IMG/VR virus record: IMGVR_UViG_3300031857_001595
Coordinates: 1-21,724 of that record
Strand: one strand, 5' to 3'
DNA length: 21,724 nucleotides
Source of the DNA: a virus
Shown: positions 1,861-19,309 of the stretch, in pieces
How positions within the stretch are numbered: position 1 is the first letter of the stretch
Layout: every line of letters begins with the position of its first letter
Made by a program: the position numbers and the translations under genes
The notes under the pieces: generated by a model
The model's database searches: none
Seen by the model: the letters and a program-made list of their open reading frames with translations, nothing else
What the model was told of the DNA's origin: nothing

Positions 1861-3606
1861 ATGCACTACTCCACGACTTCGACGCCAGCGCCTCCCGCTC
1901 CGGGCAACCCCGACGAGGCCCGCCGCGTTGAGCATACGCGGCACCGCTACGCGATGATGGAGGGGCGTTGGCTCCCGTTGCTGGAGGCCCGCCTCGAGCA
2001 GCAGATCGGATCTGTGCGCCGTGCAGCGTGGGGCATTGGTGACATTACTCAGTGCATGATGCGCACGACGAGCATCGAGCTCGCCACGCTCTACGACGCC
2101 GAGCCCGACGTGCGTCACTCGCAGATCGCGCCGAGCGCGAACCTCGATCGCCTGATCGGCTCCTCCGGGTCGATCGCTCGGAGCGGACTGTGGTCGCAGA
2201 TGACGCGCTTCCAGGCGCTGACGATCGCTCTCCGAGAGATGTGGATGCGCGTCGAGGTCGTGGACGGGCGCATCGTCTACCGTCCCGTCCCGCCACACAT
2301 GACGTTCGCGGAGGCCGACGCGGCGAAGCCGACTGTGCCCGTCGTGTTCGGGGAGCTGCGCCTCCGCTGGATCGCGGACAAGCACGTATGGACGTTCGAC
2401 GTGTGGGACATCCGTGATCCCGAGTTCCCCACCTACCGGGTCTTCGAGGCGCTCGACGGGTGGAAGTTTGGGCGGAACTTGACCATGGAGCTCCACGGCG
2501 CGACCTACGACGGCGCCGACTACCCGGCAGCGTGGCGCCGCCAGAACGGGACGCCGGTCATTCCGGCGCAGCTGTACCATGCCAGCACCTACGGCGATCG
2601 GCTGTTCGATCCCTTCGCCAACATCGAGCTCTACGAGGCCACGCTGAACCTCGGCGTGCTGTACTCGTACCTCAACCATGCCATCCGAGACGCGAGTCAC
2701 CCGCAGCGGTACGCTGTGGGCGTCCGGGTGGCGGGCATGGATGCGGTGGATCTCGGCTCCCGCGCGAGCCGCTCGGAGGTCACGACCGATCCCGCGACGA
2801 TCCTCATGTTCGACCCGATCGGTGAGACGACGCAGCCGATGCTTGGACAATTCCTCGCCGGGTCGGACGTGTCGAAGCTGGAAGAAGTGATCTCTGCGAT
2901 CGCCCACCGCGCCGCGACGGACGCCGGCCTCGCGCCCTCGGAGCTCCAGCGCACGTCGGGCTCTGCCCGTTCCGGGTACGCGATCAGTCTCTCGCAGGAG
3001 GGCAAGCGGGTCGCGCAGCGCCGGTACGTGATGCAGTTCCGCGCCGCCGACGAGGCGCTCGTCGGACTCTCGGCCATCCTGTTCAACCGCTGGGCGGAGG
3101 CCAACTCCGAGCCGACGAACTACCCGGAGGGCGGGTACTCGGTCCTGTACCGCGAGATCCCACTCTCTCCGCAGGAGATGGAGGCGAGGCGTAAGCACAT
3201 TCTCGAGATGCGCGCTGCCGGTCTGATGAGCGACGTGGACGCGCTGCGCTTCTTCGGCTCGCTGAGCGAGCAGGATGCAGTCGCGCAGCTCGCGCAGATC
3301 CGCGCCATGCGCGGAGAGGCGGCGCCTCCCGCGGAAGAAGGACAAGAGACGCCGGAAGCGCCGCCCGCCGCCGACGTATCGCGCGAGCATGCCGAAGCGA
3401 TGTCTGAGGCGGTCGATGAGCTCCGCGCTTCTGAGGAGGCGCTCGACGGACTGCTGGCTGGCAGCGTGACCGAGGACCAGCGGGACATCCTGCGCGCGGT
3501 GCTGGAGTCTCTGCGCGAGGCGCGCGGCTACCTCACGGGCGAGGATGTCGAGGCAGAGACGGAGCTCCCCGGAGAAGTCGAGAGCGAAGCCTCCGAGGAG
3601 GCGTAG
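1861..3606 (+). CDS. Portal protein
   Basis: This 581-residue protein directly follows the large terminase, the usual place for the portal. The start is supported by an AGGGGG ribosome site 5 bases before the ATG. Residues 20-130 are helical; a mixed beta region with many aromatic residues follows to about 260. The section at 330-400 has the portal-type pattern of a long helix, AGLAPSEL, then SGYAIS (371-376) and a basic helix. After about residue 485 the protein becomes acidic and rich in Ala, Glu and Pro. Portals form the dodecameric ring at one capsid vertex that docks the terminase and later the connector. The fold resembles SPP1 gp6/DUF4055-type portals by pattern only. A long antisense reading frame here is a GC-rich shadow. 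Confidence 0.88.
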   Translation: MHYSTTSTPAPPAPGNPDEARRVEHTRHRYAMMEGRWLPLLEARLEQQIGSVRRAAWGIGDITQCMMRTTSIELATLYDAEPDVRHSQIAPSANLDRLIGSSGSIARSGLWSQMTRFQALTIALREMWMRVEVVDGRIVYRPVPPHMTFAEADAAKPTVPVVFGELRLRWIADKHVWTFDVWDIRDPEFPTYRVFEALDGWKFGRNLTMELHGATYDGADYPAAWRRQNGTPVIPAQLYHASTYGDRLFDPFANIELYEATLNLGVLYSYLNHAIRDASHPQRYAVGVRVAGMDAVDLGSRASRSEVTTDPATILMFDPIGETTQPMLGQFLAGSDVSKLEEVISAIAHRAATDAGLAPSELQRTSGSARSGYAISLSQEGKRVAQRRYVMQFRAADEALVGLSAILFNRWAEANSEPTNYPEGGYSVLYREIPLSPQEMEARRKHILEMRAAGLMSDVDALRFFGSLSEQDAVAQLAQIRAMRGEAAPPAEEGQETPEAPPAADVSREHAEAMSEAVDELRASEEALDGLLAGSVTEDQRDILRAVLESLREARGYLTGEDVEAETELPGEVESEASEEA

Positions 3607-4049
3607 TGCCGTTCGTCTCGGACGCACAGCGCGAGTACCTGCGGCGGAATGAGCCAGCGGTCTACCGCGAGTTCAAGAGGGCAGAGGAGCGCGGCGAGCT
3701 CGACCTACGCCCGCCGGCTACGGTGGCTGCGGCTGCTCGTCGTGGGCTTGAACTGCGCGCCGAGTACGGACGTGGCGGGACGGCTGTGGGTGTCGCCAGG
3801 GCGCGCGACCTCGGCAACCGACGCACGCTCACGATCGAGACGGTCAAGCGCATGCTCGCCTACTTCACGCGTCACGAGATCGACCTCGAGGCGCCCGCCG
3901 CGAAGCGCGGCAATCCCGGCTACCCGAGCGCCGGCTACATCGCGTGGCTCCTATGGGGCGGCGATGCTGGCCGAACGTGGGCGCGGAAGATCGTCAGACA
4001 GCAGGCGCGGATCGAAACCGCGCTTCAACGCAAGAAGGAGGCAGAATGA
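3606..4049 (+). CDS. Conserved phage head-operon protein with an ARARD/WLLWGGD motif
   Basis: This 147-residue basic protein starts at GTG 3606, overlapping the portal stop by one base, with AGGAGG at 3596-3601. The N-terminus (FVSDAQREYL) resembles the opening of many small phage head proteins. The rest carries a motif recalled from unrelated phage genomes: ARRGLELR, GGTAVGVARARDL, a helix ending in FTRH, and PSAGYIAWLLWGGDAGRTWA near the C-terminus. The function of that motif is not established to my knowledge. It lies between portal and scaffold, where many phages encode a prohead protease or a minor head protein, but no Ser-His protease signature is visible. A role in head assembly or as an internal structural protein is inferred from position. 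Confidence 0.8.
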   Translation: MPFVSDAQREYLRRNEPAVYREFKRAEERGELDLRPPATVAAAARRGLELRAEYGRGGTAVGVARARDLGNRRTLTIETVKRMLAYFTRHEIDLEAPAAKRGNPGYPSAGYIAWLLWGGDAGRTWARKIVRQQARIETALQRKKEAE

Positions 4050-4594
4050 GCGCAGAAGAAGGAACGACGACTGTAGATGACGGCGGCGCGAATGCCCGCA
4101 TCCGGCAGCTTGTCGCGCGCGTGAAGGAGCTCGAGTCCCGCGTGGGCGAGCTCCAGCCGCTCGCGGAGACTGCCGAGAAGTACCGCACGCAACTCGACGA
4201 GCAGAAGGCGATGTCGAAGGCCGAGCGCGAGGCGCTTCGCCTCGAGCGCGAGATCATGTCCGCTGGTGTCATGGACGCCGAGGGACTCGAGTACGTGCAG
4301 CACGCGTACTCCAAGCTGCCCGCCGAGGGCCGTCCCTCGATCTCGGAGTGGCTGGGCAACAAGGAGGCGCTTCCGAAGGCGGTGCGCGCGTACCTGTCGG
4401 ACACTGCCGCGCCGACGACTACGACGGCAGCGCCGACGCCCGCACCTGCGCCCGCGCCCTCGACGGCACGCGCTGCGGTGGCGGCGGCGCCAGACGCTCC
4501 GCAGAGCTGGACGCCCGAGGCGATCGCGCGTCTGTCTCCGCAGGAGTTCAAGGCCAACCGCGAGGCGATCTTCGCGGCTTTGCGCGCGGGTTGA
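4046..4594 (+). CDS. Capsid scaffolding protein candidate
   Basis: The ATG at 4046 is chosen over an upstream in-frame start at 3944 because it overlaps the previous stop as ATGA and has AAGGAGG at 4035-4041. The 182-residue product has an acidic N-terminus, a strong heptad coiled coil (about residues 17-70, rich in Glu, Leu and Arg), a mixed middle, a Pro/Ala/Thr linker (about 115-155) and a C-terminal helical tail. A long coiled coil plus linker and a small basic C-terminal helix, placed directly before the major capsid gene, is the hallmark of scaffolding proteins, which template prohead assembly and then leave. No protease domain is fused. The call rests on architecture and position, not on a sequence motif. 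Confidence 0.75.
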   Translation: MSAEEGTTTVDDGGANARIRQLVARVKELESRVGELQPLAETAEKYRTQLDEQKAMSKAEREALRLEREIMSAGVMDAEGLEYVQHAYSKLPAEGRPSISEWLGNKEALPKAVRAYLSDTAAPTTTTAAPTPAPAPAPSTARAAVAAAPDAPQSWTPEAIARLSPQEFKANREAIFAALRAG

Positions 4595-4620
4595 CACCCG
4601 AGCGGGAGTATGTGTAGGCT
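4591..4620 (+). promoter_or_regulatory. Candidate promoter of the major capsid gene
   Basis: A perfect TTGACA -35 hexamer (4591-4596) is followed after 18 bases by TAGGCT (4615-4620). The -35 box overlaps the stop codon of the scaffold gene. Predicted transcription starts near 4627, giving a leader of about 90 bases before the capsid ATG at 4718. The same spacing and -10 hexamer occur before the first gene of the operon. A dedicated promoter fits the need for hundreds of capsid copies per virion. Confidence 0.6.
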
Positions 4621-4654
4621 GGCAGTGCGAGGCACTACCTCGCACGCGCTCGGG
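4597..4654. repeat. Nested inverted repeats in the capsid leader
   Basis: Two perfect 8-base inverted repeats are nested. The outer pair is CCCGAGCG (4597-4604) with CGCTCGGG (4647-4654). The inner pair is GTGCGAGG (4625-4632) with CCTCGCAC (4638-4645), closing a 5-base loop. The inner hairpin would lie at the very 5' end of a transcript from the candidate promoter. The outer left arm lies in the promoter spacer, so only read-through RNA from upstream could form the full structure. There is no U-tract, so a simple terminator is unlikely. mRNA protection or an operator are alternatives. Confidence 0.6.
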
Positions 4655-4717
4655 CCGAGCTCCCGTCATCAGCGATAGGCGCGGTCTAACCTCGATAATC
4701 TCAAGGAGGCCGCTACT

Positions 4718-5641
4718 ATGGCCAACGAAGTCTACTACAGTGGTTTGTCTGGCAACGCCCGCGTTGCCGCTATTCTCAACCAGGCCGTGCTGATGAAGCT
4801 GACGGACACCGCCAGCCTGGTCAACCACCCGGCGATCGTGCAGCTCCGCGCCATGAACGGCTCCGGCTCCAGCGTCGTGCAGGTGCCTGTCGTGTCGTGG
4901 GGCGCCGACGCGATGGCGGCGGTCGCTGAGAACGCTTCGGTCTCCAACACCTCGCTCACCAGCACCAACGCGAACGTGACGATCGCTCGTCAGGCGCTTC
5001 GCCGCCAGATCAGCGACCTCGCGCAGCTGACCGCGACCGGCATCCCCATGGATGTCACGGTGGACAACCTCGCGTCGGACATGGTTCTCGCGTACAACAA
5101 GCGCGTCACGACCATGCTCACCGCGCTGTCCTCCGGGTTCTCGACCTCGGTCGGCTCGACGGGCGTGGACCTCTCGGTCTCCACCTTCTACAACGCTATC
5201 TTCGCCCTCCAGCTCCAGGCCAACGACGGACAGTTCGTGGCCGTGCTCCACAACCAGCAGATCAACGACCTCATGTCCTCGCTCCGCTCCGAGACTGGCC
5301 CCGGCCAGTACCTCCAGAGCGCTCAGGCGGGCGTCGAGGCGAAGGGCCCCGGCTTCAAGGGCTCCCTCTTCTCCGTGGACCTGTACGGATCGAACACCGT
5401 CCCGACGGCGAACGCCGGGGCAGACTTCCTCGGGATGATGTTCACGCGTGGCGCGATCGGCGTTGCGACCGGCACCGCCGCCCCGGTGATCGGCTCCACC
5501 ACGACCGTGCCGCAGAGCCCGATTGTTGTCGAGTTTGAGCGTGACGCCAGCAATGGCAGCACGATCATCGTCGGCTCTGCCTTCGTCGGCGTGGCCGAGC
5601 TCGATGACCTGCGCGGCGTCGGCGTCCTCAGCGACTTCTGA
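4718..5641 (+). CDS. Major capsid protein, HK97-type fold (inferred)
   Basis: This 307-residue protein has a strong AAGGAGG site (4703-4709) before its ATG. It is beta-rich with regular Ala/Ser/Thr/Val content, consistent with an abundant shell protein. The region around residues 55-90 (VVQVPVVSW, then AENASVSNTSLTS) looks like the E-loop part of HK97-fold capsids. A long helix at about 115-140 could be the spine helix, and VGVAELDDLRGVGVL closes the C-terminus. There is no N-terminal delta-domain helix of about 100 residues, which fits the separate scaffold gene upstream. It is flanked by its own promoter and terminator. Identification rests on position, length and composition; the fold was not computed. 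Confidence 0.88.
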   Translation: MANEVYYSGLSGNARVAAILNQAVLMKLTDTASLVNHPAIVQLRAMNGSGSSVVQVPVVSWGADAMAAVAENASVSNTSLTSTNANVTIARQALRRQISDLAQLTATGIPMDVTVDNLASDMVLAYNKRVTTMLTALSSGFSTSVGSTGVDLSVSTFYNAIFALQLQANDGQFVAVLHNQQINDLMSSLRSETGPGQYLQSAQAGVEAKGPGFKGSLFSVDLYGSNTVPTANAGADFLGMMFTRGAIGVATGTAAPVIGSTTTVPQSPIVVEFERDASNGSTIIVGSAFVGVAELDDLRGVGVLSDF

Positions 5642-5653
5642 TCGCTGAACCAC

Positions 5654-5700
5654 AAGCGCCCGTCTCGGTGGTTACTCTACCGGGCGGGCGCTTCTGCGTT
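5654..5700 (+). terminator. Terminator-like hairpin after the capsid gene
   Basis: AAGCGCCCG (5654-5662) pairs perfectly with CGGGCGCTT (5685-5693). The stem can be extended by three more pairs, two of them G-U, and then by GGT/ACC closer to the loop. The following CTGCGTT is only weakly T-rich, so termination may be partial. Partial termination would lower downstream expression while letting the rest of the operon be read. The right arm resembles the stronger terminator after the tail-tube gene. Confidence 0.65.
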
Positions 5701-5723
5701 CGCCTCACGAAGAAGGAGACAAG

Positions 5724-6389
5724 ATGGCAGCGACTTTCGGCACCAGCGGGACCGGCAACTTCGCCGCGCAGCCCGCCTCTCGACCGCAGGCAATGAAGGA
5801 GCTCGTGCGCCTCGAGCCGCGTCCGGCATGGTGGTACATCCACCATCCTGCGCGGTGGACGTTCCGCGAGGGCGAGTGGGTGCCGTGGCTGTCGGTGCTG
5901 GCTGCTGACCCGGGCGTGTCCAACGTGGACAAGGACGGCAGCACGGACGCCGCCGAGGTGGCGAAGCGCCGCCGGGGATGGACCGTGATCCCGTGGGAGG
6001 CCGAGGCGGGCGGGTACTGCGTGGCCTACGATGGCGTGGCCGGTCTGGTCCACCTGTCGAAGTGGGAGATTCCTAAGGTCGTGGCGGGACAGACCCGAAT
6101 TCAGTCCGACGAGGAGGGCTATTGGGCGTTCTGCAAGTCTCTCGTCGGGACGTACATCGACCTGCCAGATCCTGACTTCATCGGCGTGCAGATCGAGCGC
6201 CAGCAGAAGAAGGTGGATGAGTGGCGAGAGAAGGCGCCGAGCTCTCCGTTCCACCGCGATGCGCTCGCCGTCGAAGAGGCGCTGCTCGAGTCGATGATCT
6301 CCGCGAAGGAGCGCCTCTACAATCCTCCTGCTCCGGGTGAGGAGCCCGAGCCCGCGCCGAAGCCGAAGGTGCGTCGAGGCCGCGCATGA
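5724..6389 (+). CDS. Conserved capsid-adjacent phage protein of unknown function
   Basis: This 221-residue protein begins at an ATG with a GAAGGAG ribosome site. The N-terminus is Gly/Ala/Thr-rich and extended. Residues 30-60 are notably aromatic (WWYIHH, PARWTF, WVPWL). The middle is alpha/beta, and residues 150-195 form a charged helical hairpin (IERQQKKVDEWREKA and EALLESMISAKERLY). The C-terminus is a Pro/Glu/Lys tail ending in basic residues. I do not recognise a named family. Its place just after the major capsid gene and before the adaptor suggests a minor head or capsid-associated protein. The stop overlaps the next small gene as ATGA. Confidence 0.8.
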   Translation: MAATFGTSGTGNFAAQPASRPQAMKELVRLEPRPAWWYIHHPARWTFREGEWVPWLSVLAADPGVSNVDKDGSTDAAEVAKRRRGWTVIPWEAEAGGYCVAYDGVAGLVHLSKWEIPKVVAGQTRIQSDEEGYWAFCKSLVGTYIDLPDPDFIGVQIERQQKKVDEWREKAPSSPFHRDALAVEEALLESMISAKERLYNPPAPGEEPEPAPKPKVRRGRA

Positions 6390-6535
6390 GCGGCGAGCGC
6401 GCAGGCTACCGCGAGGCGATGGAGCGCATGGCGCGTCAGCTGCGAGACGGCGGCATGCCCGCCGACAAGGCGCGGCAGACGGCGCAGGATGCGGCGAAGC
6501 GTCAGGATCAGCGGGAACGCGATAAGGGCCGGTAA
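6386..6535 (+). CDS. Small basic helical protein (49 residues)
   Basis: This short reading frame starts at ATG 6386, overlapping the previous stop as ATGA, and ends at TAA 6533-6535. The 49-residue product is strongly charged, with about ten Arg and a helix-forming pattern (EAMERMARQLRDGG, then ADKARQTAQDAAKRQDQR). The ATGA overlap, the filled gap between two longer genes and the sensible amphipathic composition argue that it is real. The ribosome site is poor (a CGAGG element about 11 bases upstream), so translation probably depends on coupling. Function is unknown; nucleic-acid binding or a minor head component is possible. Confidence 0.6.
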   Translation: MSGERAGYREAMERMARQLRDGGMPADKARQTAQDAAKRQDQRERDKGR

Positions 6536-11473: not shown

Positions 11474-14400
11474 ATGGCCACCGCAATCACCCGCTCCTAC
11501 CTGCGCGGCCTCCTGCTGCCAGATCCGCGTCTCACCTACGACGCGTACTCGTCTACGCTGAGCACTGCCACGCAGGCGGGTCCAGTGCCCGGAGAGGCTG
11601 TCGCAGCACAAGATACCTACGCCACGCTCGCGGCTGTCGGCACGCAGAGCGCAGGCGGCAGTCTACAGGTGCAGGCGATCCGCGCCGGCATGCCGGGGCT
11701 CGATAGCGCCGGCATCACCTGGCGCAACACGGGCGACCCGCTCTACCGAGGGCTCGATGTACCGGCGATCGTCAGCGGCTTCGGCAACGTCGCCTATACG
11801 ACAACGGCGGGCCTGTACCGAGATGCCTACGTGTTCGCGGCTTCGACCGATACCCTCCTCGTCGTGTACGAAAACACGGTGCAGGGCAGCGTCCGATGCT
11901 CGTACCGCACTGATACCGCATCGACGTGGACCGATGTGCAGGTGTTCAGCCACTTTGGCGTGACGGGTAGTGTCTACACTACGGGCGCCCGAGCATGTGG
12001 CCTCGAGCTCCCGAGCGGGCGCCTGCTGGTGTTCTACGCGGTCGAGGACGCGAGCGCCTCGACGGTCAACGTGGGCATGTCCTACAGCGACACTGATGGC
12101 GCGACGTGGACGCGCGGACAGACCGGGTGCCTTGAGGCTGCGATTAGCACGACGAGCCAGAGCATCCGGCGCATGCGCGCCGCGTACCTCGCCGGGCAGA
12201 TCGTGCTGATGGTCGATGTCGTGGACACGAGCACCGCCTACTCGCAGCGGATGGCGCAGTACGCGAGCGCGGACCTCGGTGCGTCCTTCCAGCTCGTTGA
12301 TCAGTACAGCGGCGCGGACCTGGACAATCACGGCGGGTTCCCCGACGTGGCAGCACAGGGTGACGTGTACGTGCTGACGTACATCCGGCGCGAGAACCAC
12401 GCGACCTATGGGCTCCTCAACAGGCCGTGGAGTCGCACGCTGGCGAACGCATACGCGAAGTTCTCGGCAGCGGTCGAGGCGCGCATGCAGGACGCTTCCA
12501 ATCCGATGTCATGGGCGACGGGCACGACGACGTGGGCCGACGCAGACATGGCGCTGTGTGCTGCGGAGGGCGGGCGCCTCTACGCTGTCGGGCGCGATGC
12601 CGTGGCAGGTGGCCTCGATGCGCTCGCGGTGCGCTCGACGGATGACGTGGGCGCGACATGGTACGGGCTTGGGTCGAGCTCGCACCCGACAACGAAGGCG
12701 ATGCTCTGGCGCGGCGAGAGCGTGGCAGTCCACCCGCGCTATCTGTCGGCAGCGTGGCAGCGTGGCCGGATGATCGTGGCGCACCAGCACAACAGCGTGA
12801 CGGCGCTCGCGGAGTCCTCGATCTCGATCATGGCCGCAGGCGGGTGGGCAACGGTCAACCTGCCGTCTCTGTCCGGCGCTCCGACGCACGCGCGTCAGGT
12901 GGCGTGGGAGCGGACGTGGCTCCCCTACGATCTGCCGCAGACAATGGACGCAGTGAGCTGGGCCTTCACAAGCACGGGCGCCCCTACTGTCGCCTTCGAC
13001 ACCGCCGGGATGAATGTCACGGGTGGCGTAGGCGACTCCGCGACGTGGACAGGATCGCCCACGGGCACGCTCCAGCAGGGCGTGATCGCGGAAGGCTGGG
13101 TGGATGTCAACAACGGGCAGAGTACGATCCGCGTCCGTGCGGGTGTGGGCGGTCCTGCGTCGTTTGAAGCCTCGGTCGTTGCGACGCCGACGACGATCTC
13201 GCTCCTCGACGTGACAGGTGCCGTCACGATCGCGACGGTCAACACCGCCGCCGCCGCCTCGGGCGTGTGGCTGCGGATCGCGGTCGGGCGTGTGGCGACC
13301 TCGGGCACGGGTCAGTGTGTCGCCTGGTACGCGTTGGGAGCTCGAGGCGATGCCGAGGATCGCGCGTGGGTGCAGGTAGGCGCATCGACTGCGCTGGTGC
13401 AGGGCGCGTCTACGACGCACCGCGTGCAGTTCACCTCGGGCGTCGGCGCGGGCGTCATCGTCAACAGCGTGTGGCGATGGATGTCCTACGTGTCGGGCGC
13501 CTACGCTGGCACGGCGCAAACCGGGATCTACAATGTGCCCGCGAACCCGGGCGACCTCTTGGCGCGTGACCTCGCTGCTGAGCCTGTCTACGTCGCGGGC
13601 GGCGTCAGCGTGTACGGCACGGATGGACCAGCCTACCGCTCGGACGCTTGGACGATCGACGCGGCCTATCGCTACCCGATCCGCGCAATCCATGCCGAGG
13701 AGGAGCCAAGTCCTCGTCGGGCGTGGCGCTCCACGACGACGGCGAGCGAGCAAATCATCGCGTGGGAGCTGGACGGGACGCTGACGAGTCCGTTCCTGGG
13801 CCCGGCGCGCGTGCTGTACCTCGGCGGGATCAACTTCCGTACGGCGTATTGGGAGGGCCGAGACGGCGCGAGCGTGTGGCAGTCAATCGCCACCATCGAC
13901 GCCGCGAATGGGCAGACGGGCCTCGGCTTTGTCCTCGATCACAACATCGTCACCGCTGCTACGCCGTTCGGCGGGGGGTACATCGATCGCACGATCACGG
14001 CGAACGAGCTTGCCGGCGCCTACTGGTCCTCTTCGGGAGGTACGCGCGTGCGACCGATCGCCGTCAACACTCCGGGGGTCTGGCCCAGCTTGACGACGGG
14101 GGACGGTACGAAGGTTCGCATGACCATCACTCCGCAGGCGGGCGACCCAACGAACGGCAACGACGGCGCGATCATCATGCCGAGCGTGACCGTCATCGCT
14201 GCGGAGAGCGCGAGCCCGAGCACGGAGTACAACGCATACCGTCTCCGCATCCCTGCCCAGACGACGAGCGAGGGCTATTTCGCGATCGGCGTGTGCGTCA
14301 TGGGCTACTTCCACGTATTCGGAACGCAGTACAGCGCGAACCGATCGCAGAGCATGTCACCCGCCTACGAGCTCGTGGAGGGCCGTGGCGGTGCTCGCCG

Positions 14401-14788
14401 GGCTACCCGCCTCGGTCCTGCGCGTCGGGCGGTAGAGGTGTCGTGGGATGAGGGCGTCGACGCGAAGCAGATCGCAGGCAACGACGCCAACTACGTGCGC
14501 CTCCACGCGAGCGGGCCGGGTATCGCCTCGGTCGCTGACGTGGCGCCCTCGATGCTGGGCGTGCTGGAGCAGCTGGACGGCGCAGTGACGCCGATCGTGT
14601 ACCTGCCGCGAGTCGTCCCGATGACAGGCGGCACGACGGTACGGACCATCGTAGAGCCTCCGCTGATGCTGTACGGGCGCATCCGTACCGAGTCGCTACA
14701 GGTGGATACCGTGCAGGGTGACGAGTACGACACGACGACGGGCGAGGTCTACCGCTTGGCGCGCGTGCGGATCGAAGAGGAGCTGTGA
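11474..14788 (+). CDS. Large tail-tip protein with a sialidase-like Asp-box region
   Basis: This 1104-residue protein follows the tape measure, with GGGAGG at about 11459-11464. Residues 1-100 form a distal-tail-like N-terminus (GSLQVQAIRAGMPGLDSAGITW). Residues 105-470 carry Asp-box-like repeats: TDTASTW (146-152), SDTDGATW (205-212), SADLGASF (265-272) and TDDVGATW (389-396). Each follows a short strand, as in BNR/sialidase beta-propellers. Residues 490-700 look like a lectin-type jelly roll with many Thr/Ser/Val strands, and the remainder is beta-rich to a short acidic C-terminus. The stop overlaps the next gene as GTGA. It is probably a virion tail-tip protein that binds or degrades a surface glycan. 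Two of the four boxes are degenerate, so the catalytic state is unknown. Confidence 0.75.
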   Translation: MATAITRSYLRGLLLPDPRLTYDAYSSTLSTATQAGPVPGEAVAAQDTYATLAAVGTQSAGGSLQVQAIRAGMPGLDSAGITWRNTGDPLYRGLDVPAIVSGFGNVAYTTTAGLYRDAYVFAASTDTLLVVYENTVQGSVRCSYRTDTASTWTDVQVFSHFGVTGSVYTTGARACGLELPSGRLLVFYAVEDASASTVNVGMSYSDTDGATWTRGQTGCLEAAISTTSQSIRRMRAAYLAGQIVLMVDVVDTSTAYSQRMAQYASADLGASFQLVDQYSGADLDNHGGFPDVAAQGDVYVLTYIRRENHATYGLLNRPWSRTLANAYAKFSAAVEARMQDASNPMSWATGTTTWADADMALCAAEGGRLYAVGRDAVAGGLDALAVRSTDDVGATWYGLGSSSHPTTKAMLWRGESVAVHPRYLSAAWQRGRMIVAHQHNSVTALAESSISIMAAGGWATVNLPSLSGAPTHARQVAWERTWLPYDLPQTMDAVSWAFTSTGAPTVAFDTAGMNVTGGVGDSATWTGSPTGTLQQGVIAEGWVDVNNGQSTIRVRAGVGGPASFEASVVATPTTISLLDVTGAVTIATVNTAAAASGVWLRIAVGRVATSGTGQCVAWYALGARGDAEDRAWVQVGASTALVQGASTTHRVQFTSGVGAGVIVNSVWRWMSYVSGAYAGTAQTGIYNVPANPGDLLARDLAAEPVYVAGGVSVYGTDGPAYRSDAWTIDAAYRYPIRAIHAEEEPSPRRAWRSTTTASEQIIAWELDGTLTSPFLGPARVLYLGGINFRTAYWEGRDGASVWQSIATIDAANGQTGLGFVLDHNIVTAATPFGGGYIDRTITANELAGAYWSSSGGTRVRPIAVNTPGVWPSLTTGDGTKVRMTITPQAGDPTNGNDGAIIMPSVTVIAAESASPSTEYNAYRLRIPAQTTSEGYFAIGVCVMGYFHVFGTQYSANRSQSMSPAYELVEGRGGARRATRLGPARRAVEVSWDEGVDAKQIAGNDANYVRLHASGPGIASVADVAPSMLGVLEQLDGAVTPIVYLPRVVPMTGGTTVRTIVEPPLMLYGRIRTESLQVDTVQGDEYDTTTGEVYRLARVRIEEEL

Positions 14789-18608: not shown

Positions 18609-18842
18609 ATGACAGACGGCGACTCCAGCGCTCTCGCGTCATTGTTTGCGCAACACATGAAGCAGACCTCGATCGACCGCCGCGAGCAGACTGCCGAGTT
18701 TACGCGCGGGCTGGATGGCCTCCGCAGCGACATCCGCATCCTCGGCGCCCTCGCCCTCCTCGGCATCCTGGCGCTCGCCGGGATCCAAGTGACTACTGAT
18801 CACGTCACCTTTACGCCGCCCGTGGCGCAGGCGGCAGAATGA
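18609..18842 (+). CDS. Single-transmembrane holin candidate
   Basis: The ATG at 18609 follows AGAGGTGG; an upstream in-frame start at 18501 lies inside the previous gene and is rejected. The 77-residue protein has a polar, charged helix (residues 10-42, with several Arg and Glu), one strong membrane segment at about 44-61 (ILGALALLGILALAGIQV) and a short C-terminal tail. It immediately precedes and overlaps the endolysin gene as ATGA. Small membrane proteins in this position are usually holins, which open the inner membrane at the programmed time. One membrane segment fits the T4-type class but is not diagnostic. It could also be another lysis-associated membrane protein. Confidence 0.65.
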   Translation: MTDGDSSALASLFAQHMKQTSIDRREQTAEFTRGLDGLRSDIRILGALALLGILALAGIQVTTDHVTFTPPVAQAAE

Positions 18843-19309
18843 GCGACGTGTCCAAACACTTCTCGTGGGCTGAGCTGACCCGCACGGGCTCGACCGAGCT
18901 CCAGCAGATCAACCGGCACGAGGCCGAGCAGTGTCGTGCGGCGCTGACGGCGCTCGCTACGACGATCCTCGAGCCGATCCGCGCGAAGTTCGGCCCGTTG
19001 AAAGTGAATAGTGCCTTCAGGGGGCCGAGCGTGAACGCGAAGGTCGGCGGCAGTAAGACCTCGCAGCATCTACGCGGCGAAGCTGCTGACATCGTGGCGC
19101 CCTCGGTCACCGTCGAGGAGCTCCACCGCTGGATCATCGAGGAGTCGGGCCTGCCATATGGGCAGTGCATCCTGGAGAAGACTTCACCCGCGCGTCCGTT
19201 CTCGTGGGTGCATGTTTCGCTCGGGGAGCCGTGGCGCAAGGATACACTGTGTCGGCAGGCGCTCGTCTACGACGGCGCTGGTCACTACACGACGTGGGAG
19301 GCAAAATGA
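18839..19309 (+). CDS. Endolysin, M15A-type D-Ala-D-Ala peptidase
   Basis: This 156-residue protein starts in an ATGA overlap with the holin candidate. It shows the M15A pattern clearly: SAFRGPSVNAKVGGS followed by the zinc ligands H77 in SQH, D84 in AADI and H125 in WVHVS, with a Glu-containing ILEK strand between them. Family members hydrolyse peptide bonds in peptidoglycan stems or cross-bridges. There is no signal peptide, so it would rely on the holin for release, and no wall-binding domain, which is the globular form common for Gram-negative hosts. Length is normal for a single-domain enzyme and all three metal ligands are present. Confidence 0.93.
   Translation: MSDVSKHFSWAELTRTGSTELQQINRHEAEQCRAALTALATTILEPIRAKFGPLKVNSAFRGPSVNAKVGGSKTSQHLRGEAADIVAPSVTVEELHRWIIEESGLPYGQCILEKTSPARPFSWVHVSLGEPWRKDTLCRQALVYDGAGHYTTWEAK

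Follow-up and report, generated by a model that had tools for sequence, protein, structure and literature searches.

The capsid locus and its promoter

The DNA analysed here, which we call the window, is a stretch of 21,724 nucleotides with a G+C content of 67% corresponding to positions 1-21,724 of the IMG/VR virus record IMGVR_UViG_3300031857_001595. All features of the capsid locus described below lie on its plus strand. An open reading frame at 4718-5641 encodes the major capsid protein (MCP), although its product had no match in PHROG or Pfam. An AlphaFold model of this protein (pLDDT 62.9, pTM 0.61) matched HK97-fold phage capsids, the best structural match being the capsid of phage NF5 (E 2.4e-14), and an earlier note on this DNA had been right to speak of a capsid gene here. 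The start codon is preceded by the Shine-Dalgarno (SD) sequence AGGAGG (4704-4709), and an ORF at 3944-4594, just upstream of the capsid promoter, has the position of the scaffold gene. Farther downstream, the product of 18839-19309 contains a Peptidase M15 domain (Pfam PF08291, E 1.8e-15) and is likely an endolysin.

The capsid promoter consists of the -35 box TTGACA (4591-4596), which overlaps the TGA stop codon (4592-4594) of the upstream ORF, an 18-nt spacer and the -10 box TAGGCT (4615-4620), and the transcript would start at about 4626-4628. A scan with a stricter consensus found 0 promoters and missed this one. At a looser threshold the 21.7-kb window contained just two sites, the capsid promoter and CTGGCA-17-TACAAT at 13506 within the long ORF 11474-14788. 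In 29 aligned leaders of relatives the whole TTGACA and four letters of the -10 box (TAGnnT) are invariant.

Relatives provided 53 distinct promoters, and 39 of these have the sequence TGTCA (at least four of its five letters) exactly 3 nt after TTGACA, with at most one match at any other offset. A dyad TGACA-N3-TGTCA with variable N3 is thereby formed over the -35 box, at the position that corresponds to 4592-4604 of the window. This dyad is likely the operator at which some regulator acts on the capsid promoter, and it has been lost from the window's own clade.

Only the inner of the nested palindromes is maintained in relatives

Nested palindromes had been described over the capsid promoter and leader in the earlier note, with outer arms CCCGAGCG (4597-4604) and CGCTCGGG (4647-4654), inner arms GTGCGAGG (4625-4632) and CCTCGCAC (4638-4645) and a further pairing of CGGGAG (4603-4608) with CTCCCG (4660-4665), and on re-reading the letters all of them were present at these positions. 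Raw palindromes of this kind are not above chance in the window, since shuffled sequences hold as many: perfect 8-bp hairpins with loops of 3-8 nt numbered 5 versus 6.2 expected, and 8-bp arms spaced by 30-50 nt numbered 21 versus 21.4 expected. Which arms matter is visible only through comparison with relatives.

The inner arms form an 8-bp hairpin with the loop CACTA (4625-4645), here called P1. In the 29 aligned leaders 94.0% of the P1 cells are paired and 35 cells are altered on both sides, which 0 of 500 shuffles matched; the paired share was 75.0 ± 1.7% in shuffles and 28-69% when the arms were slid along the alignment, and 7 of the 8 pairs have changed on both sides. The rows are related sequences, for which the shuffle control is insufficient alone, and the slid control retains their relatedness. 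Arm variants comprise GTGCGAGG/CCTCGCAC, GTGCGGGG/CCCCGCAC and TGCGGCGG/CCGCCGCA as well as the shorter AGCGGC/GCCGCT, GAGGGC/GCCCTC and GTGAGGG/CCCTCAC, and the wobbles observed are five G-U and no A-C. By the criterion of compensatory change in relatives, P1 is a real RNA helix, limited to certain lineages, namely the window's clade and some others. With the predicted start at 4626-4628 and the promoter spacing conserved, P1 is a stable hairpin within a few nucleotides of the predicted 5' end, which supports its earlier placement at the extreme 5' end of RNA made from the local promoter.

A leader peptide or attenuator was rejected at this position, as the 29 leaders do not conserve the reading frame that starts at GTG 4625, and so was an intrinsic terminator, as there is no T run and 0 terminator-like sites were found in 3500-6500.

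The compensatory changes sought in relatives were thus present in the inner arms and lacking in the other two pairings. For the outer arms, 59.9% of the cells are paired in relatives versus 58.9% in shuffles, and we rejected them as a helix; for CGGGAG/CTCCCG, proposed as a further competing pairing, the figure is 63.2% in both, and it was rejected likewise. Among relatives, the 5' outer arm is carried only by the window's clade and by L050, a relative with the window's exact 18-nt promoter spacer; we judge it to be a chance match within the promoter spacer, where most relatives have the second half of the dyad described above. Conservation of the 3' outer arm is due to a larger element of which it forms a part (about 4645-4683), and the outer palindrome is, on this comparison, a chance overlap. 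This larger element, directly downstream of the inner hairpin, is the main feature of the leader and had been overlooked in the earlier note.

A conserved element of two helices and a single strand follows P1

In aligned upstream regions, P1 is followed at once by a near-invariant stretch, CGCG-NN-CGGG-loop-CTCCCG-TNANNAGYGANAGG-CGCGG. In the window it begins with the 5' strand of a helix P2, CGCG(CT) (4645-4650; base 4645 also belongs to P1), followed by a hairpin P3, CGGG-CCGAGCT-CCCG (4651-4665), which includes the CTCCCG arm and part of the 3' outer arm. A conserved strand, TCATCAGCGATAGG (4666-4679), comes next and leads into the 3' strand of P2 (P2'), (GG)CGCG (4678-4683), which pairs with the 5' strand. 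The family form of the conserved strand is UNANNAGYGANAGG, and in distant relatives it reads GUNAACAGCGNNA. These distant relatives share the plan of P2 around a P3 of 3-5 bp (often GGG-UCGCA-CCC), then GUNAACAGCGNNA, then P2'. The P3 stem varies among relatives (CGGG/CCCG, CGAG/CTCG, CGTG/CACG, AGG/CCT, CGG/CCG).

As P2 is CGCG/CGCG nearly throughout the window's clade, support for this helix comes from the distant relatives, where we found GUCCC/GGGAC (L200), CUCGCC/GGUGAG (L193), CUGGC/GCUAG (L073), GUUC/GAAC (L213), GGUC/GACC (L216), CUCU/AGAG (L221) and GGG/CCC (L184, L186). The energies of the duplexes that 20 anchored P3 hairpins, picked without use of P2, form between their own flanks sum to -172.4 kcal/mol, and 0 of 100,000 permutations of the flanks reached a sum as low; with one hairpin per group (16 hairpins), 1 of 100,000 permutations was as low. 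This permutation analysis excluded L211, whose leader has a hairpin insertion, as well as the second registers found for L205, L221 and L067, and pairing is uneven by individual, the rank of a hairpin's own flanks among the 20 spanning 1 to 9. In the L211 leader the additional hairpin lies inside the strand between P3 and P2', and in the L069 and L198 leaders the element is separated from the start codon by some 60 additional nt that contain a further G+C hairpin.

A first covariance model was built from five distant elements, none of them of the window's clade; searched over 51 sources, it matched positions 4646-4682 of the window (E 0.0029). The hits of this model at E 0.02 or better, 23 in number (22 distinct), were assembled into an alignment, A9, that was fitted to the structure. 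For P2, P3 and the pseudoknot described below, 94.8% of the A9 cells are paired versus 73.5% in shuffles and 36-55% when slid, the covariation amounts to 0.484 versus 0.118 ± 0.023 in shuffles, and all five P2 pairs are altered on both sides. Comparison of relatives thus shows a conserved structured leader in which P2 encloses P3 and the strand UNANNAGYGANAGG or GUNAACAGCGNNA lies between P3 and P2'. A hairpin CCTCC...GGAGG that would sequester the SD sequence was found in 23 of 39 leaders versus 14.8 expected and was rejected as too weak; the SD sequence of the window itself is outside the conserved fold.

A predicted pseudoknot between the P3 loop and the conserved strand

The CGC of the P3 loop probably pairs with GCG of the conserved strand, forming a predicted pseudoknot. 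C2 of the loop faces G in most lineages, whereas the contact fails in L213 and in L184/L186/L190, where it faces A, and in L216, where it faces U; at the matching position the 29 members of the window's clade have G-C in 14, G-U in 6 and A-C in 9 cases, and the loop-strand pair is altered on both sides in two cells of A9. The prediction was tested in a further viral scan, in which a G in place of the loop C was expected to be faced by C or U in the strand. Among the 56 stretches, five lineages were element-like (L274, L291, L300/L308, L305 and the L329 group). By our own tally, these five lineages with a TGGC loop have C as facing base in three cases and U in two, all of which pair, and the background for this comparison, also by our tally, is C or U in 22 of 42 hits.

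Distribution and genomic context of the element

The first viral scan with the window MCP gave 80 relatives, alignment-based scans gave the best 80 of 142 and the best 80 of 159 relatives, and two single distant MCP queries gave 15 and 8; all these sets overlap. Among cultured phages only weak homologs of the window MCP were found, and in two of them, HTVC112P and DSL-LC06, the scaffold and MCP genes are separated by only 15 and 29 nt and there was no model hit. A search of cellular genomes with the MCP profile returned 32 stretches and 0 relatives, the exact element pattern returned 0 stretches from cellular genomes, and blastn of the element against cultured phages gave chance-level matches or none.

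The element precedes HK97-type capsid genes down to 36-40% identity. When IMG/VR was searched with a DNA pattern of the core that is blind to proteins, 37 stretches were obtained, and by our reading 27 of them lie 23-100 nt upstream of MCP-like ORFs; the remaining 10 are not MCP leaders. Diverged MCP-like ORFs among the 27 were tied to the family by profile comparison (L279, L267) or by reading (L291).

A second model was trained on 23 rows, one of them from the window; over 70 sources it gave the window E 7e-6 and a single hit, no second copy being found elsewhere in the window. Many members of the window's clade are scored weakly or missed because their P3 loop, GCAAGCU, differs; L015 and L018, for instance, were found at E 0.11 and L020 was not among the second-model matches listed. 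A model scan of 30 complete virus records gave matches in 23 at E 0.1 or better, some of these matches being coding hits that were set aside, and most of the matching records have one place only. Second hits in L015 and L018 were rejected as coding; as G004 is the record that contains L017, the hit at its position 28421 was equated with this coding hit, and hits in L277, L283, L264, L294 and L296 were set aside because no MCP lies downstream. Of 87 leaders, a loose descriptor of the element matched 86 and a strict one 67; the corresponding numbers among 5000 random windows were 824 and 265, the random windows not having been cleared of leaders; given this looseness, the descriptor was not used as stand-alone evidence. 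L017, L208 and L244 were too short for this comparison, and the single miss of the loose descriptor, L237, is a degenerate copy.

The position of the element relative to sigma-70-like promoters was determined for 28 elements, hand-picked from model hits and by reading. In 21 of the 28 a promoter ends 5-26 nt before P2, whereas 361 of 56,000 positions drawn at random from these loci have one. The gap between promoter and P2 is 7-16 nt in 16 elements and 22-24 nt, with room for P1, in 5, including the window. The end of P3 lies 43-108 nt upstream of the start codon, and the gap from P2' to the start codon is 25-95 nt. By this count the capsid mRNA would begin with the element in most lineages. 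This role is not universal, as 7 of the 28 have no promoter reaching the threshold at 5-26 nt from P2. In L300/L308, moreover, no promoter is visible; there the element stands before an MCP homolog (hhalign E 2.9e-16), and 14-15 nt separate it from the scaffold-like ORF upstream.

Tandem copies of the element occur in three records, L282/L199 (L282 1341-1432), L274 (3530-3607) and L291 (3084-3168), and in the first copies of L274 and L291 the loop reads TGGCA and the strand has changed to match it. Element-like motifs were also seen before a scaffold-like 220-aa protein (L305, 6261) and, in L329 (9368), L322 and L314, before a non-MCP protein of 168-209 aa; this latter motif starts 7 nt past the end of the upstream ORF, at a distance of 9-15 nt from the start codon.

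Leaders and capsid genes seem to be reassorted by recombination: the L050 leader, with the window's exact spacer, stands before a capsid 70% identical to that of the window, and in the L243/L084 case L243 combines an L052-like leader with a capsid 53% identical to that of L052.

Possible functions of the leader

Taken together, the comparisons indicate that this conserved structured RNA, led by P1, is very probably a cis-acting leader element of the MCP mRNA. Action at the RNA level is favoured because of the compensatory changes, the presence of G-U and absence of A-C in P1 and the fixed relation to the transcript start. The location at the 5' end speaks for protection of the mRNA or for an action on RNA polymerase during elongation, and the conserved unpaired letters together with the tandem copies favour recognition by a protein or a ligand. 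We tentatively put first a combination of 5'-terminal protection with protein recognition that tunes capsid output. According to this reading, the compact 5'-terminal fold would shield the capsid mRNA from 5'-end-dependent decay, its conserved loop and strand would be recognised by a protein of phage or host, and this protein would tune capsid synthesis, so that the fold would act in cis, at the RNA level, to set capsid output. It was ranked ahead of the four alternatives taken up first below; these readings overlap, and the likelihoods that we attach to them are not meant to sum to one.

It is possible that the element is an autogenous translational operator, at which the capsid or scaffold protein binds and represses MCP translation. 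The gene-specific position, the conserved loop and strand, the tandem copies in three records and the element of L300/L308, which does without a promoter nearby, are consistent with such a role, and a precedent is T4 gp32, which acts at a leader pseudoknot (PMC3014915). Against it stand the variable gap between P2' and the start codon, the SD sequence outside the fold and the near-identical leaders in front of differing MCPs (window and L050, L243 and L052).

We doubt that the structure is a plain 5'-end stabiliser, in which P1, or P2/P3 where P1 is absent, merely shields the mRNA from decay in an ompA-like manner. Such a role would fit the 21 of 28 elements in which structure begins within a few nucleotides of the expected transcript start, and a P1 that retains pairing and not sequence, as a mere stem would, but it leaves the conserved single-stranded letters, UNANNAGYGANAGG or GUNAACAGCG, and the tandem copies unexplained.

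A processive antitermination or antipausing RNA that acts, like HK022 put, on RNA polymerase leaving the capsid promoter is an unlikely explanation. Two hairpin modules lie just past a promoter, as described for putL (PMC9378689), and head a late transcript here, yet the same source places put before early operons with a length of about 70 nt; the elements had no Rfam match, no promoter is visible in L300/L308 and no terminator-like site was found in 3500-6500. A small-molecule riboswitch or a ribozyme, for which the compact fold, the invariant unpaired letters and the tandem arrangement could speak, is less probable still: there is no Rfam match, no linked metabolic gene and no conserved alternative expression fold, the SD hairpin being present in 23 of 39 leaders versus 14.8 expected.

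That the conserved letters form a DNA site (operator, packaging or recombination) is highly improbable, for P1 and P2 keep complementarity as letters change, wobbles in P1 are G-U only and the position of the element tracks the transcript start; what resembles a DNA operator is the separate dyad over the -35 box. Finally, the proposal in the earlier note that outer and inner palindromes together let the leader distinguish local from read-through RNA is hardly credible and lacks evolutionary support because the outer and CGGGAG/CTCCCG pairings are not kept in relatives, although in the window alone the predicted fold of read-through RNA pairs CGGGAG with CTCCCG and so disrupts P3.

Returning to the favoured combination of protection and recognition, a broader and more speculative proposal is that the capsid mRNAs of a whole superfamily of uncultured tailed phages are marked by a new class of leader RNA with a pseudoknot. 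This RNA would serve as binding site at which the capsid protein, a different morphogenesis protein or a factor of the host would meter capsid synthesis, making it a phage-wide RNA operator for virion stoichiometry. A covarying leader fixed before the capsid gene in phages with less than 40% capsid identity offers a handle on the question of how phages match capsid subunits, needed by the hundreds, to the amounts of portal and scaffold. To our knowledge, structured RNAs controlling phage structural genes have been described only in a few cases. The covariance model can be used on any virome and could lead to capsid genes that current protein families miss, the window MCP, missed by PHROG and Pfam, being itself an example.

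Comparison with known systems

Judged by its letters and predicted fold, the element is a new family within a known kind, the structured phage mRNA leader, and it is absent from Rfam 15. None of the 4227 families of this release matched the window at the gathering score; for 4560-4760 at E 10 or better, only two below-gathering matches to snoRNAs on the minus strand were obtained (best E 0.13), and 19 loci of relatives (11 + 8) gave no match at an element at E 1 or better. In the literature on structured, leader or capsid phage RNAs, of which most subscription papers were beyond reach, we recognised nothing as this element, judging by titles and the openings of abstracts.

Stem-loops of the ompA type at the 5' terminus are proposed mRNA stabilisers. 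P1 resembles them in its location at the extreme 5' end; in contrast to them, it is followed by a conserved module with specific unpaired letters. Mu-gpT-DE RNA is associated with a Mu-like capsid gene and shares with the element the status of a candidate cis RNA tied to a phage capsid gene. It is listed as RF03012 in PMC7657543, and it differs in that the search of all 4227 Rfam families matched none of our elements.

HK022 putRNA (PMC9378689) has two stem-loop modules just after a phage promoter, belongs to early operons, measures about 70 nt and acts on RNA polymerase. The element likewise has two stem-loop modules right after a phage promoter, but it is a capsid leader; the two are compared here by description. 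In gene 32 of phages T4, T2 and RB69 a leader pseudoknot is the translational operator, located 67 nt upstream of the start codon (PMC3014915). The element is similar in being a small leader, predicted to be pseudoknot-like, in a phage mRNA, with the end of P3 at a comparable range of distances from the start codon. It differs from the gene 32 leader in the gene that it precedes and in its fold, in which P2 encloses P3, and in its location, mostly at the 5' end of the capsid transcript and across a wide set of phages.
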